Notes under the pieces: generated by a model
The model's database searches: none
What the model was told of the DNA's origin: nothing
Seen by the model: only the letters and a program-made list of their open reading frames with translations
Part shown: positions 30,451 through 32,800 of the stretch, piece by piece
Layout: each line of letters begins with the position of its first letter
How positions within the stretch are numbered: the stretch's first letter is position 1
DNA from: Oscillospiraceae bacterium
GTDB lineage: Bacteria; Bacillota; Clostridia; Oscillospirales; Oscillospiraceae
Direction of reading: 5' to 3'
Assembly: GCA_017621795.1 (NCBI GenBank)
Contig: JAGASJ010000067.1
Location: 1 to 39,854 of the forward strand
DNA: 39,854 bases
Position numbers and translations under genes: made by a program

Positions 30451-30517
30451 TTTGCCCATTGTGCAGGAAAGAATAATCAGCGGCGCGCTGCCTCTGCGCC
30501 GCAACGGAGGAACGTTT

Positions 30518-30856
30518 ATGGAAAACCTTTATAACCGTATTGAAGCCCTGTGCAGCGAGCGTAACATCCGTCCCGGCCGCCTTTGTAACGACCTGGGGCT
30601 CAGCCGCGGATTGGTGACGGACCTGAAAATGGGTCGCAAGAAAAGCCTGAACGCAGAAACTGCGCAGAAAATTGCCGCCTATTTCGGCATTTCCGTGGGT
30701 CAGCTTTTGGGACAGGAGGAGCATACGGATGTATTGGATCGGGTAGACGTGGCGTTTTACGGTGATTTTAAGGAACTCAATGAAGAAGAAAAGGAGACCG
30801 TTCGGGATATGGTGCGGCTGATGCGCCAGCGGCGGGCGGCAAATCAGAGGGATTAA
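30518..30856 (+). CDS. XRE-family helix-turn-helix repressor
   Basis: A 112-residue protein with an N-terminal XRE helix-turn-helix (about residues 3-65; 'GRLCNDLGLSRGLVTDLKMG' contains the recognition helix) and a charged C-terminal helix rich in Glu and Arg. The ATG at 30518 is chosen because GGAGG lies at 30506-30510; an in-frame ATG at 30452 would include it. It is followed 2 nt later by an ImmA/IrrE-type peptidase gene, an arrangement in which the peptidase often inactivates the repressor, as in ICEBs1 ImmR/ImmA. No integrase or structural phage gene is nearby. Confidence 0.88.
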   Translation: MENLYNRIEALCSERNIRPGRLCNDLGLSRGLVTDLKMGRKKSLNAETAQKIAAYFGISVGQLLGQEEHTDVLDRVDVAFYGDFKELNEEEKETVRDMVRLMRQRRAANQRD

Positions 30857-30858
30857 AG

Positions 30859-31326
30859 GTGTTTGAGATTTCGGATTTTTATACATATTGCGCGGAGCAC
30901 GGGGTGGACGTCATTCCGTATTTCGGCTGTCCCCAACCCGGTGCGACGGTGCGGGATGAGGGATACTATGCGGTATTTTTAGACTTTTCGAAAATTCAGT
31001 CTACAAGGCTTCTGCGGGGCGTGTGCTGTCACGAGCTGGGGCACGCCGCCACCGGTGCGCTGCACAAGGTAGACAGCCCCTACGAGCTGGCAGAGCGCAG
31101 TGAGTACCGTGCCAACCGCTGGGTCGCGGAGCGCTTTTTAAGCCGGGAGGAGTTTGCTGAGGCCTTTAGAAACGGCTGCAGGGAGCTGTGGCAGCTTGCG
31201 GAATATTTCGATATGCCCCAGGAGGATGTGCAAAAGGCCCTGCATTACTGGACGGAGTGTAAGGGTGTTGATTTCAATCGGCCGGAAAGTGTCGGCGCAA
31301 TGGGCGCAAAAGATGGGCAGAACTAA
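30859..31326 (+). CDS. ImmA/IrrE-family metallopeptidase
   Basis: A 155-residue zinc peptidase with HELGH at residues 58-62 and a likely third ligand Glu in 'ERSEYRANRWVAERFL' about 25 residues later, the classic ImmA/IrrE layout. The start is GTG 30859, two nucleotides after the repressor stop, with GAGGG about 7 nt upstream; translation is probably coupled. Its expected role is cleavage of the adjacent XRE repressor under stress or in response to a signal. A terminator overlaps its stop codon. Confidence 0.9.
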   Translation: MFEISDFYTYCAEHGVDVIPYFGCPQPGATVRDEGYYAVFLDFSKIQSTRLLRGVCCHELGHAATGALHKVDSPYELAERSEYRANRWVAERFLSREEFAEAFRNGCRELWQLAEYFDMPQEDVQKALHYWTECKGVDFNRPESVGAMGAKDGQN

Positions 31327-31397: not shown

Positions 31398-31473
31398 GGA
31401 CGATTAGCTCAGCTGGTAGAGCATGCGCTTGACGTGCGCAGGGTCAGCGGTTCGAGTCCGTTATCGTCCACCA
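31398..31473 (+). tRNA. tRNA-Val (anticodon GAC)
   Basis: A 76-nt cloverleaf with CCA encoded. The acceptor stem GGACGAT pairs with ATCGTCC, the D-loop contains AGCTCAGCTGGTAGAGC, the anticodon loop TTGACGT between TGCGC/GCGCA gives GAC, and the T-arm contains GGTTCGAGTCC. It has its own consensus promoter and terminator. Confidence 0.95.
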
Positions 31474-31527
31474 AAAAAATGCCGCCCTTATGGGCGGCTT
31501 ATTTTTTTGGTGGACGATAACGGACTC
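31454..31527. repeat. Inverted repeat containing the tRNA-Val 3' end
   Basis: Nt 31454-31480 (T-arm to CCA plus A7T) reappear as a perfect 27/27 reverse complement at 31501-31527. Between them lie the terminator stem and two T residues, so the whole 74 nt is nearly one continuous hairpin. Confidence 0.95.
31481..31508 (+). terminator. Intrinsic terminator of tRNA-Val
   Basis: GCCGCCC-TTAT-GGGCGGC followed by TTATTTTTTT, starting 7 nt after the CCA end. Confidence 0.92.
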
Positions 31528-31697
31528 AGTTATATTCGCCTTCGGCGAGTTATATTGCTTCGCAGTTATATTTGGCTTACGCCAAGTTATATTGCCCTAC
31601 GGGCAGTTTTGGGGGCGAATATAATATAACTGCTGCATAGCAGCAATATAACTTTTACGAAGTAAAAATATAACTCCGGCAAAGCCGGAATATAACT
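31528..31697. repeat. Mirror-symmetric array of AGTTATATT 9-mers and variable mini-hairpins
   Basis: AGTTATATT occurs at 31528, 31548, 31564 and 31585, and its exact reverse complement AATATAACT at 31623, 31645, 31667 and 31689. The intervals hold seven short perfect hairpins, all with different stems: CGCC-TTC-GGCG, GC-TTC-GC, TGGC-TTAC-GCCA, GCCC-TAC-GGGC, then GCTGC-ATA-GCAGC, TTTAC-GAA-GTAAA and CCGGC-AAA-GCCGG. The centre (31605-31622) is an asymmetric G-rich stretch. The array starts exactly where the inverted tRNA copy ends and its last base opens the -35 of the next promoter. Confidence 0.95.
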
Positions 31698-31725
31698 TGA
31701 AACTACAGTGCGATACTTGTATAAT
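31697..31725 (+). promoter_or_regulatory. Promoter of the four-helix-bundle gene
   Basis: TTGAAA at 31697-31702, 17-nt spacer, TATAAT at 31720-31725. The -35 overlaps the final base of the hairpin array. A long Shine-Dalgarno, GAGGTGATC, lies at 31732-31740. Confidence 0.85.
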
Positions 31726-31743: not shown

Positions 31744-32099
31744 ATGGCAGAAAGTGTATTGAGAGATAAAGCAAAAAACTTTGCGAAAGAAATCGTGTTG
31801 CTTTGCCGTCAGATCAAAGCAACCCACAAGGAAGCTGTACTTACAAACCAACTCTTGCGTTCCGGTACTTCTATCGGCGCAACTTACACGAGGCGCAATA
31901 CGCACAAGGTACAAAGGATTTTATCTCTAAATTTGAGATTGCCCTGAAAGAGTGCCACGAAACCGAATATTGGTTAGAACTATTACACGAAACCGGCTAC
32001 ATCCCGGACGACCAATACAAACCCTTGCAAAACGACTGCGGCTCCATCCGCCGTATGCTGATCGCCTCCATCAACACCATAAAGGAGAGTATAAAATGA
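31744..32099 (+). pseudogene. Four-helix-bundle protein (23S rRNA intervening-sequence type), frameshifted
   Basis: The ATG at 31744 follows an excellent ribosome site. Frame one reads 'AKNFAKEIVLLCRQIK' and 'LRSGTSIGA', then goes out of frame; the continuation 'NLHEAQYAQGTKDFISKFEIALKECHETEYWLELL' is found in the frame beginning at 31881. Both halves are the standard S23/IVP four-helix-bundle family (normal length about 118 aa). A single A appears to be missing near 31880-31882 (GCAAC where GCAAAC is expected), and the first frame stops at 31947. No slippery heptamer is present. The rest shows no decay, so this is either a recent mutation or a sequencing error. The TGA stop overlaps the next gene's ATG (ATGA). 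The family's molecular role is unknown; members sit in 23S rRNA insertions and elsewhere in genomes. Confidence 0.85.
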
Positions 32100-32800
32100 A
32101 GAAGTTTCTGCTGCCTATTATAGCATTTTGTTTATTTTTAGGCCTGTCCGCATGTTCCGATGGATCCTCCAACGATGGAGAGCTTGCGGCATACAAAGCG
32201 AAAATTGAGGAACTGGAGCAGCAGGTACAACAGCTAAAGGCACAGCTGTCCGTATATACCAATGGGGAAATTCCCGTAGGAGACAACACAAACAAGCCCC
32301 AAAGCTCTACTGAGCCCACGACCATCACTTTGGGTCAAACTGTCCGCATTGAGGACGTGCTGGAATTTACCATCACCTCCTGTGCCTGGGAGACGCAGAT
32401 TTTGCCCAGTAATACCAACGGCTCCTATTCGTATAAAGCGGATGTGGAGGACGAAACCTACCTGGTGTTCAGAGGGCAACTTACAAATCTGAATGGCCAG
32501 AGCATATCTGTGGACCACATTCAGGAGTCTGAGATACTGATTAACGGAAAGTATACCTTTTATGTCCGTATGGATGCAGAGGATACCGATGGCGCAGGCT
32601 ATAGTACCTCCACGAAGCCGTTACAGACTGTCAATTTTGTGATTTATGCATCTGTATCGGATGGGGTCAAGGAGATCTTCGAGGAAGCTACTGTGACCCT
32701 TCATCTGTTAAATGATCCCGACCGGACACAGTATTTCTTCGACAAAGAAGATGATTGCAAAAATACATACACCATCCATCTGTCTGCACAGTCATTCTGA
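32096..32800 (+). CDS. Hypothetical lipoprotein with coiled coil
   Basis: A 234-residue lipoprotein with lipobox LSAC (C20). A short coiled coil follows (about 29-56, 'YKAKIEELEQQVQQLKAQL'), then a Ser/Thr/Pro linker and a beta-rich C-terminal domain containing 'FRGQLTNLNGQSISVDHI' and 'VNFVIYASVSDGVKEIFE', a layout like DUF4352-type lipoproteins though I cannot confirm that. The ATG at 32096 overlaps the stop of the four-helix-bundle frame and uses AAAGGAGAG inside it, so translation may be coupled. It is the first of three consecutive lipoprotein genes. Confidence 0.83.
   Translation: MKKFLLPIIAFCLFLGLSACSDGSSNDGELAAYKAKIEELEQQVQQLKAQLSVYTNGEIPVGDNTNKPQSSTEPTTITLGQTVRIEDVLEFTITSCAWETQILPSNTNGSYSYKADVEDETYLVFRGQLTNLNGQSISVDHIQESEILINGKYTFYVRMDAEDTDGAGYSTSTKPLQTVNFVIYASVSDGVKEIFEEATVTLHLLNDPDRTQYFFDKEDDCKNTYTIHLSAQSF

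Follow-up and report, generated by a model that had tools for sequence, protein, structure and literature searches.

Proteins of the four-helix-bundle (FHB/S23p) type are widespread, and to our knowledge neither their function nor a catalytic site is known. Genes for such proteins are carried by intervening sequences (IVS), which have been described since 1990 and for which we know of no established mechanism. Among dispersed repeats, the palindromes of REP/BIME elements occur as head-to-head pairs.

The available portions of the literature describe several systems close to the locus considered here. The ORF of IVS has been proposed, without proof, as a mobility component (PMC4990558), and Avd, the accessory protein of diversity-generating retroelements (DGR), is presented as a likely homologue of PF05635 proteins (PMC10053308). 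REP/BIME with RAYT are dispersed short palindromes (PMC3733652), and the heptamer direct repeats of Beggiatoaceae, cyanobacteria and Bacteroidetes are intergenic, patchy and apparently horizontally spread (PMC4679880). Gut-1 is listed as a noncoding RNA found only in the human gut and unaffiliated with mRNAs (Weinberg et al. 2010, PMC2864571).

The locus lies in a window (the whole stretch of 39,854 nucleotides analysed here) from the genome of an Oscillospiraceae bacterium (2.03 Mb, 105 contigs, 89% complete). Its array of short spacers and mini-hairpins probably represents one of the dispersed copies of a terminator-associated, mobile-type DNA element belonging to the FHB/IVS kind.

Layout of the array and its surroundings

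Sequence reading and computed repeats place the left half-array at 31528..31604 of the forward strand, where four AGTTATATT spacers (starting at 31528, 31548, 31564 and 31585) are combined with four mini-hairpins. The computed repeats also define a centre (31605..31624, forward strand), and the right half-array (31623..31697, same strand and methods) consists of four AATATAACT units, which start at 31623, 31645, 31667 and 31689 and are exact reverse complements of AGTTATATT, together with three mini-hairpins. The G-rich centre between the half-arrays reads AGTTTTGGGGGCGAATATAAT. All of the inter-unit stretches form perfect hairpins, namely CGCC-TTC-GGCG, GC-TTC-GC, TGGC-TTAC-GCCA and GCCC-TAC-GGGC in the left half, and GCTGC-ATA-GCAGC, TTTAC-GAA-GTAAA and CCGGC-AAA-GCCGG in the right half. 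The corresponding loop sequences in the orientation of AGTTATATT are TTC, TTC, TTAC, TAC, TAT, TTC and TTT. The first-pass annotation had described four units facing four exact reverse complements across a G-rich centre, seven perfect hairpins with differing stems that pair fully, and pyrimidine-rich loops of 3-4 nt in one orientation; this description is confirmed. Since positions 31614-31624 are the reverse complement of 31530-31540, that is, of the first spacer and the first arm, hairpin 1 can pair either locally or with the centre.

The analysis confirms that the array at 31528-31697 is real and far above chance. The pattern AGTTATATT-N3-30-AGTTATATT has 10 forward and 10 reverse matches on five contigs of the same genome, with none for the reversed control, and the fold of the 170-mer has z-scores of -6.3 as DNA and -6.8 as RNA, equalled by 0 of 200 shuffles. 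A CRISPR identity was rejected, as the variable segments are palindromes and the repeat orientation flips at the centre.

Upstream of the array lies a tRNA-Val (GAC) gene (31398..31473, forward strand; ARAGORN, RF00005). Its 3' end, the terminator hairpin and an inverted copy of the tRNA 3' end form an extended palindrome (31454..31527, forward strand; repeats), whose 27-nt arms (31454-31480 and 31501-31527) are 100% complementary. The 3' arm stops exactly where the array begins (31527/31528), so that the array abuts the extended terminator hairpin of tRNA-Val and does not lie inside an RNA gene. On the opposite side, a sigma70-type promoter match, TTGAAA-17-TATAAT (11/12; 31697..31725, forward strand; sequence reading, promoter scoring), overlaps the last array base. 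Both neighbours named in the initial reading, the inverted tRNA copy on the left and the promoter of the FHB gene on the right, were thus located. The pair of genes for an HTH protein (HTH_26) and an IrrE-like protein (Peptidase_M78) directly upstream of tRNA-Val (30452-31326) is perhaps another mobile element bordering this tRNA.

The FHB gene (PF05635, named '23S rRNA IVP', and TIGR02436; 31744..32099, forward strand; profile matches) has a broken frame. Its N-terminal piece (31744-31881) and C-terminal piece (31884-32096 plus the stop) are separated by a break at about 31881-31884, and they match PF05635 with E-values of 5.7e-6 (below cut-off) and 2e-15, respectively; the second piece also matches TIGR02436 (3.3e-18). 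A profile built from nine relatives matches PDB 2RLD (five chains) with an E-value of 2.6e-35. Because of the broken frame, the window copy is probably no longer autonomous, and as no intact FHB gene of its spacer class was seen in its own genome (89% complete), the AGTTATATT arrays of this genome may be relics. A Shine-Dalgarno-like AAGGAG (32082..32087, forward strand; sequence reading) lies within the 3' end of the FHB gene. It is followed by a 'cargo' ORF of 234 aa (32096..32800, forward strand), lipoprotein-like by eye and with no Pfam match above cut-off, whose ATG overlaps the FHB stop as ATGA.

The position of the window array beside a hairpin is shared by most arrays of the genome. 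Sequence was available for 22 of the 23 arrays detected; in 18 of these the array start coincides with the point where a hairpin 3' arm ends, against 20 of 400 random positions, and 8 of the 22 have a tRNA or tmRNA gene on the same strand within 170 nt. Where 420 nt or more of sequence precede the FHB gene, a tRNA on the same strand is found within that distance at 20 of 35 loci with arrays and at 9 of 38 others; from tRNA density we estimate an expectation of about 0.5%. The linkage differs between sets, adjacency being found at only 13 of 74 named FHB relatives. The hairpins that the element adjoins are strong; most are intrinsic terminators, and these often belong to tRNA genes.

On contigs C37 (the window) and C20 the tRNA 3' end recurs as a perfect inverted copy that lengthens the terminator stem, and on C80 an imperfect copy does so; all three copies end at GGACTC, directly before the array. 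On C79 the inverted tRNA copy is only a few nucleotides long, and at one site in a relative (G029:C95), by eye, it is a coding end whose imperfect inverted copy lengthens the stem. The AGTTTTATT-type arrays C69:18067, C79:2291 and C83:30163 share a near-identical leading hairpin, TGCCCAAGTGTTCT[A/T]AAGGACACTTGGGCA, so that there the hairpin seems to be part of the element. In another FHB group (L084, L095, L125, L127, L130 and L132), mostly beside tRNA genes, the terminator arm and loop seem by eye to recur between pyrimidine-rich short repeats and their reverse complement. Arrays at L081, L083 and L121, some differing in spacer class, lie within about 1 kb of one another, as if sites were used repeatedly.

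Inspection by eye of the 17 tRNA-Leu sites of relatives that were informative (13 taa, 4 caa) gave no array within 230 nt; at 6 of them a different element stands behind an inverted tRNA copy. An eighteenth tRNA-Leu-like site (L169, with no ARAGORN tRNA call) carries a Gut-1 array of another spacer class. No pair of filled and empty sites with near-identical flanks was found, the tRNA-Leu flanks being too diverged to define the ends. The six sites (L153, L154, L158, L159, L162 and L168) consist of terminator, inverted tRNA copy and an element with larger hairpins, and in several the tRNA 3' end is also copied in direct orientation; they form, by eye, a second terminator-linked family of the genus.

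Gut-1 matches, FHB genes and the recurring unit

The left half (31527-31597) scores 49.2 bits (E-value 2.3e-8) against the Gut-1 model RF01706, just below the gathering threshold of 50, so part of the array has already been catalogued, while the right half of the window array is not called by the model. The initial impression that the array belongs to no described class is therefore not supported, FHB proteins being moreover encoded by the ORFs of the known 23S rRNA IVS. Other arrays upstream of FHB genes, in this genome and in others, match Gut-1 despite having other spacers, and in several the two halves match on opposite strands. The genome contains 33 Gut-1 half-matches, 14 of them above the cut-off, which form 23 arrays. 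Gut-1 was found in 30 of 60 relatives, with a maximum of 48 matches in one genome, and at an E-value of 1e-8 in 2 of 101 genomes sampled over the phylum, one of them being the genome of the window; a weak signal also appears in the E. coli control.

The presence of Gut-1 is closely associated with FHB genes. PF05635 (E-value of 0.001 or better) is found in 29 of 30 Gut-1 genomes, in one of these (G032) only below the family cut-off, and in 8 of 30 genomes without Gut-1 (p 7.6e-9). The remaining Gut-1 genome, G049, has no PF05635 match, and 22 of 23 FHB-free genomes lack a Gut-1 match. For a comparison at the level of loci, a protein-based search kept 80 loci of 582, and 6 with less than 350 nt upstream were omitted. 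The loci, assigned to Clostridia and Oscillospiraceae, derive mostly from MAGs of the ruminant gut, and Ruminococcus bromii 5AMG is represented by a unit (L182). A 7-mer present with its reverse complement at least 4 times, together with at least 5 perfect mini-hairpins, occurs at 57 of the 74 nearest FHB relatives and in 9 of 480 background windows of the same loci; this definition, chosen like the spacer labels after inspection of the data, misses diverged arrays. The claim that arrays go with FHB genes is borne out by this comparison. Neither a lack of linkage to FHB genes nor a random distribution, either of which would have spoken against it, was seen, although many arrays, as would be the case for non-autonomous copies, have no adjacent FHB gene.

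From the 103 PF05635 matches in the genome of the window and its relatives, the regions of 80 were taken. Many of these loci share a common plan, in which a tRNA or other gene is followed by a terminator-like hairpin, four hairpins, a centre, three hairpins and the FHB gene. Their spacers vary, including TTATATT, CTAAATT, GTGAAAT, ATGAAAT, GTGATGT, GTGAAGT, TGATATA, AATGATG, ATGAATT and more. On a tree of 67 FHB proteins (13 of 80 with an internal stop or shorter than 85 aa were dropped, and the broken window copy was excluded), the hand-assigned spacer label changes 19 times, against a minimum of 16 and a shuffled mean of 38.8; none of 200 shuffles reached so low a number. Different host families occur together in the spacer clades, which indicates that the spacer follows the FHB protein and not the host. 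We infer from these sequences that the FHB protein may recognise its cognate spacer as a putative binding site.

The ends of the recurring unit were read from all-against-all blastn of the FHB loci. The recurring blocks extend from the terminator hairpin or the array to the FHB stop or a point shortly upstream of it, several alignments of the mirror group stopping 10-50 nt before the stop. Two loci from different host families, L070 (beside tRNA-Gly) and L106 (beside tRNA-Leu), are 89% identical over 622 nt, with ends at -1/+5 relative to the FHB stop. Further blocks are shared by L103/L107 (85% identity, ends 0/0), L068/L069 (82%, +2/+2) and L127/L132, which lie in one genome (82%, +1/+1); in L084/L086 and others the alignment also ends near the array start and the FHB stop. 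The same unit is thus present at unrelated sites, as expected of a mobile element. The 1.8 kb common to L080/L121 includes upstream DNA and points to one shared site and not to transposition, and the L075/L103 match runs to +35 because their cargos are related. Direct copies of array sequence follow the FHB stop at L065 (99 nt, left half and centre, directly after it), L124 (74 nt, left half, directly after it), L108 (73 nt, centre and right half, just after it) and L085 (18 nt, reaching the contig end); to judge from sequence, they would fit a circular or tandem intermediate. The first-pass annotation had proposed that array and gene are one mobile or RNA-based element. The recurrence of the block at different sites supports the mobile part of this proposal, while an RNA-based element is less likely than a DNA element.

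An 11-12/12 promoter match lies between the array and the FHB gene at the window and seven other array loci, which would leave the array outside the FHB mRNA at these eight loci. Matches of at least 9/12 are equally common with and without arrays (23 of 37 array loci and 21 of 41 non-array FHB loci). The start codon of the next gene overlaps the FHB stop as ATGA at 13 of 75 loci, the window included, and at 3 of 73 loci of the named relatives, so that this overlap is a trait of some clades and not general; a Shine-Dalgarno-like motif is present at the FHB end at 25 of 75 loci. The sequence 3' of the FHB stop differs among most loci shown. Pfam domains were recognised in 5 of 10 downstream genes (nine overlapping as ATGA and one 27 nt away), namely two methyltransferases, a GNAT, a nucleotidyltransferase and a DUF2691.

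Two other assignments were considered. A defence system was rejected, PADLOC giving no hit for two FHB proteins or the window cargo; a partial-length match to the mad2 profile was obtained for the cargo methyltransferase of L081 (E-value 9.3e-25). Carriage by phages or plasmids was also rejected, the only instances being one unverified 'Bacteriophage sp.' faecal scaffold and two cyanobacterial plasmid FHB genes. The scaffold (L253, MT835815.1, from human faeces) contains tRNA-Arg, terminator, array and FHB gene, and is possibly bacterial chromosome DNA.

Stem pairing and alternative readings

The AGTTATATT/AGTGATATT class comprises 98 half-arrays with 194 distinct inter-spacer units and 91 distinct stems. 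End-to-end hairpins are formed by 168 of the 194 units, against a mean of 14 and a maximum of 24 after letter shuffling. Among 40 distinct 13-mers, Watson-Crick pairing occurs at the five paired positions in 38, 36, 40, 38 and 38 cases, compared with 12.7, 14.4, 12.6, 12.2 and 32.6 expected from column make-up. The stems therefore differ while pairing is kept, as first proposed for the window alone. The 192 distinct units of 7-18 nt contain 873 Watson-Crick, 8 G-T, 21 A-C and 19 other pairs. Non-compensatory stem changes, named beforehand as contrary evidence, did not emerge as the rule, 154 of the 192 units having no mismatch, although mismatches do occur in 38 of them.

The scarcity of G-T pairs distinguishes these stems from those of tRNAs. 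In the acceptor and T stems of 92 tRNAs there are 1028 Watson-Crick, 66 G-T, 3 A-C and 7 other pairs, so that G-T pairs are about 7-fold rarer in the arrays (8 versus 873 against 66 versus 1028; p 2.3e-10). Selection on RNA would tolerate G-U, and its near-absence favours a DNA-level structure or copying of one arm onto the other; the A-C (21) and other (19) mismatches exceed G-T (8), which indicates that decay occurs too. In E. coli, quasipalindrome template switching perfects imperfect inverted repeats, according to the accessible part of one report (PMC7202029). Such switching would also extend palindromes outward, as in the inverted tRNA copies. The suggestion that a copying mechanism makes the palindromes agrees with both the near-absence of G-U and these copies.

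A structured noncoding RNA or RNA leader, corresponding to the Gut-1 reading, would place the function of the hairpins in RNA and their maintenance in selection on the RNA fold. The RF01706 matches and the RNA fold (z -6.8) are in its favour, as are the loops of the left half, which we take to resemble stable UNCG-type loops. It is nevertheless unlikely, given that, relative to tRNA stems, G-U pairs are depleted about 7-fold, that several arrays carry the motif on opposite strands in their two halves, that a terminator-like hairpin precedes most arrays of the genome, that eight loci have the 11-12/12 promoter match between array and FHB gene, and that the spacer follows the FHB protein. Co-variation of spacer and FHB clade would also be expected if the arrays were DNA operators, with the FHB protein binding the spacers and autoregulating its promoter and the dispersed arrays being the sites of one regulon, and at several loci the array adjoins a -35-like box. 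The joint recurrence of array and FHB gene at different sites makes this improbable, as do the C20 array, which faces the 3' end of a convergent gene and not a promoter, and the 14 of 37 array loci whose promoter match scores below 9/12.

Short hairpins with constant neighbours, in many copies per genome, also recall REP/BIME-like palindromes spread in trans by a Y1 (HUH) transposase or a reverse transcriptase. We consider this very improbable, since PF01797 (Y1_Tnp) has 0 matches in the genome of the window (89% complete) and is missing from 14 of 30 Gut-1 genomes, and PF00078 (RVT_1) is missing from 18 of 30, including the rich G039, G047 and G059, these absences being counted in partly incomplete genomes. 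Dependence on either enzyme was rejected, PF01797 being present in 16 of 30 Gut-1 genomes and 11 of 30 others, with none in the genome of the window, and PF00078 in 12 of 30 and 14 of 30, respectively. Finally, template switching at terminators could by itself make the hairpins in a passive palindrome hotspot, the link to FHB genes being secondary. This agrees with the nearly perfect stems and with the finding that, at sister tRNA-Leu sites, a different element is likewise accompanied by inverted tRNA copies, but the hotspot explains neither the shared 4+3 plan nor the co-variation of spacer and FHB protein, the recurrence of the array-FHB block in different families or the 22 of 23 FHB-free genomes without a Gut-1 match, and it merits very little credence.

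For a mobile element of the FHB/IVS kind, the reading we consider probable, the complete form, as read from the compared loci, is [terminator-like hairpin]-[S h S h S h S h]-[centre]-[S^ h S^ h S^ h S^]-[promoter, some loci]-[FHB ORF]. Here S is a clade-specific 7-9-mer and the presumed binding site of the cognate FHB protein, solved relatives of which are pentamers. The array probably represents the DNA ends of the element, its two halves corresponding to the inverted repeats that flank other FHB genes, and a circular permutation may have brought these ends together upstream of the FHB gene. The stems would diverge and yet stay near-perfect through intrastrand template switching that copies one arm onto the other, and the same process run too far would yield the inverted tRNA copy.

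Relation to known systems

FHB genes of the wider phylum were sampled as 20 loci taken from 37 among the PF05635 matches listed outside the genome of the window (19 from other families and one from its own). An inverted match of at least 10 nt across the FHB flanks occurs at 13 of the 20, against 2 of 60 shifted controls, and the inverted flanks are often short tandem repeats. Of these loci, four are located within 23S rRNA, including a pair of identical copies from a single genome; a further one falls within RNase P RNA, and another adjoins tmRNA. In the bacterial RNase P RNA gene (L291) the FHB gene has inverted short-repeat flanks, and this locus is an intervening sequence outside rRNA. Within the order of the window, inverted flanks are found at 18 of 27 non-mirror FHB genes and 5 of 43 mirror loci (13 of which, L065-L069, L076, L087, L092, L096, L105, L108, L114 and L118, were put in the mirror group by eye), and in 4 of 127 controls. 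A plasmid-borne FHB gene of Nostoc has AATTCGT repeats before it and their reverse complement after it. FHB loci thus have two topologies, A-FHB-A^ and A-A^-FHB; the window shows the latter, which may be a circular permutation of the former, opened at the FHB stop.

Tentatively, FHB/S23p proteins may be the sequence-specific recognition part of a large class of transposase-less elements that have short-repeat arrays as ends, land at hairpins (terminators, 23S rRNA, RNase P RNA) and pass through a circular form, the ends in gut Clostridia being fast-changing mini-hairpins kept by palindrome copying. If so, IVS would gain a recognition code, readable from the FHB clade and the 7-9-mer that changes with it. 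The findings also place the orphan Gut-1 RNA in a genomic context and tie it to rRNA intervening sequences. The many hairpins whose arms change together would be a natural record of palindrome copying. A literature search, with most subscription journals outside its reach, found no link between Gut-1, FHB and short-repeat arrays, which is weak evidence of novelty. Apparently new, in that they were not found in print, are the 4+3-hairpin arrays before many FHB genes with spacers that track the FHB clade, the block recurring from the terminator or array to about the FHB stop with its start site at a hairpin arm, and the phylum FHB genes between inverted short repeats, some in 23S rRNA or RNase P RNA.

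Among the known systems, membership in the DGR was rejected, the only RVT_1 match of the genome being partial and located on another contig (C23). The heptamer repeats share with the window element short intergenic 7-mer arrays and a patchy, apparently horizontal spread; the available text of PMC4679880 contains neither 'four helix' nor 'S23', and the sole link here is the Nostoc plasmid FHB gene with its AATTCGT arrays. Dispersed short palindromes are common to REP/BIME (as described in the accessible part of PMC3733652) and the window element, which differs in having seven different hairpins per unit, a linked FHB gene and a genome without a Y1 match. To Gut-1 the left half is homologous in sequence and structure, at a sub-threshold score. 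In the portion of PMC2864571 available, Gut-1 is a stand-alone noncoding RNA, and neither a mirror half nor an FHB gene, a junction with a terminator or a multitude of spacer classes is mentioned. Its listing there is confined to the human gut, whereas MAGs of ruminant, deer and horse gut origin also contain arrays built on this plan. The 23S rRNA IVS, as the available text of PMC4990558 describes them, have in common with the window element a PF05635/TIGR02436 protein, a small selfish-type element with complementary ends, insertion at a hairpin and a sporadic distribution. The window does carry an ORF of the S23p/FHB family, though with a broken frame. IVS sit in an rRNA helix, whereas the window element lies beside a terminator, and its inverted ends are arrays of spacers and mini-hairpins that are both upstream of the gene. 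As both inverted halves precede the ORF, the window element is best regarded as a variant of the FHB/IVS kind and not as a plain member.
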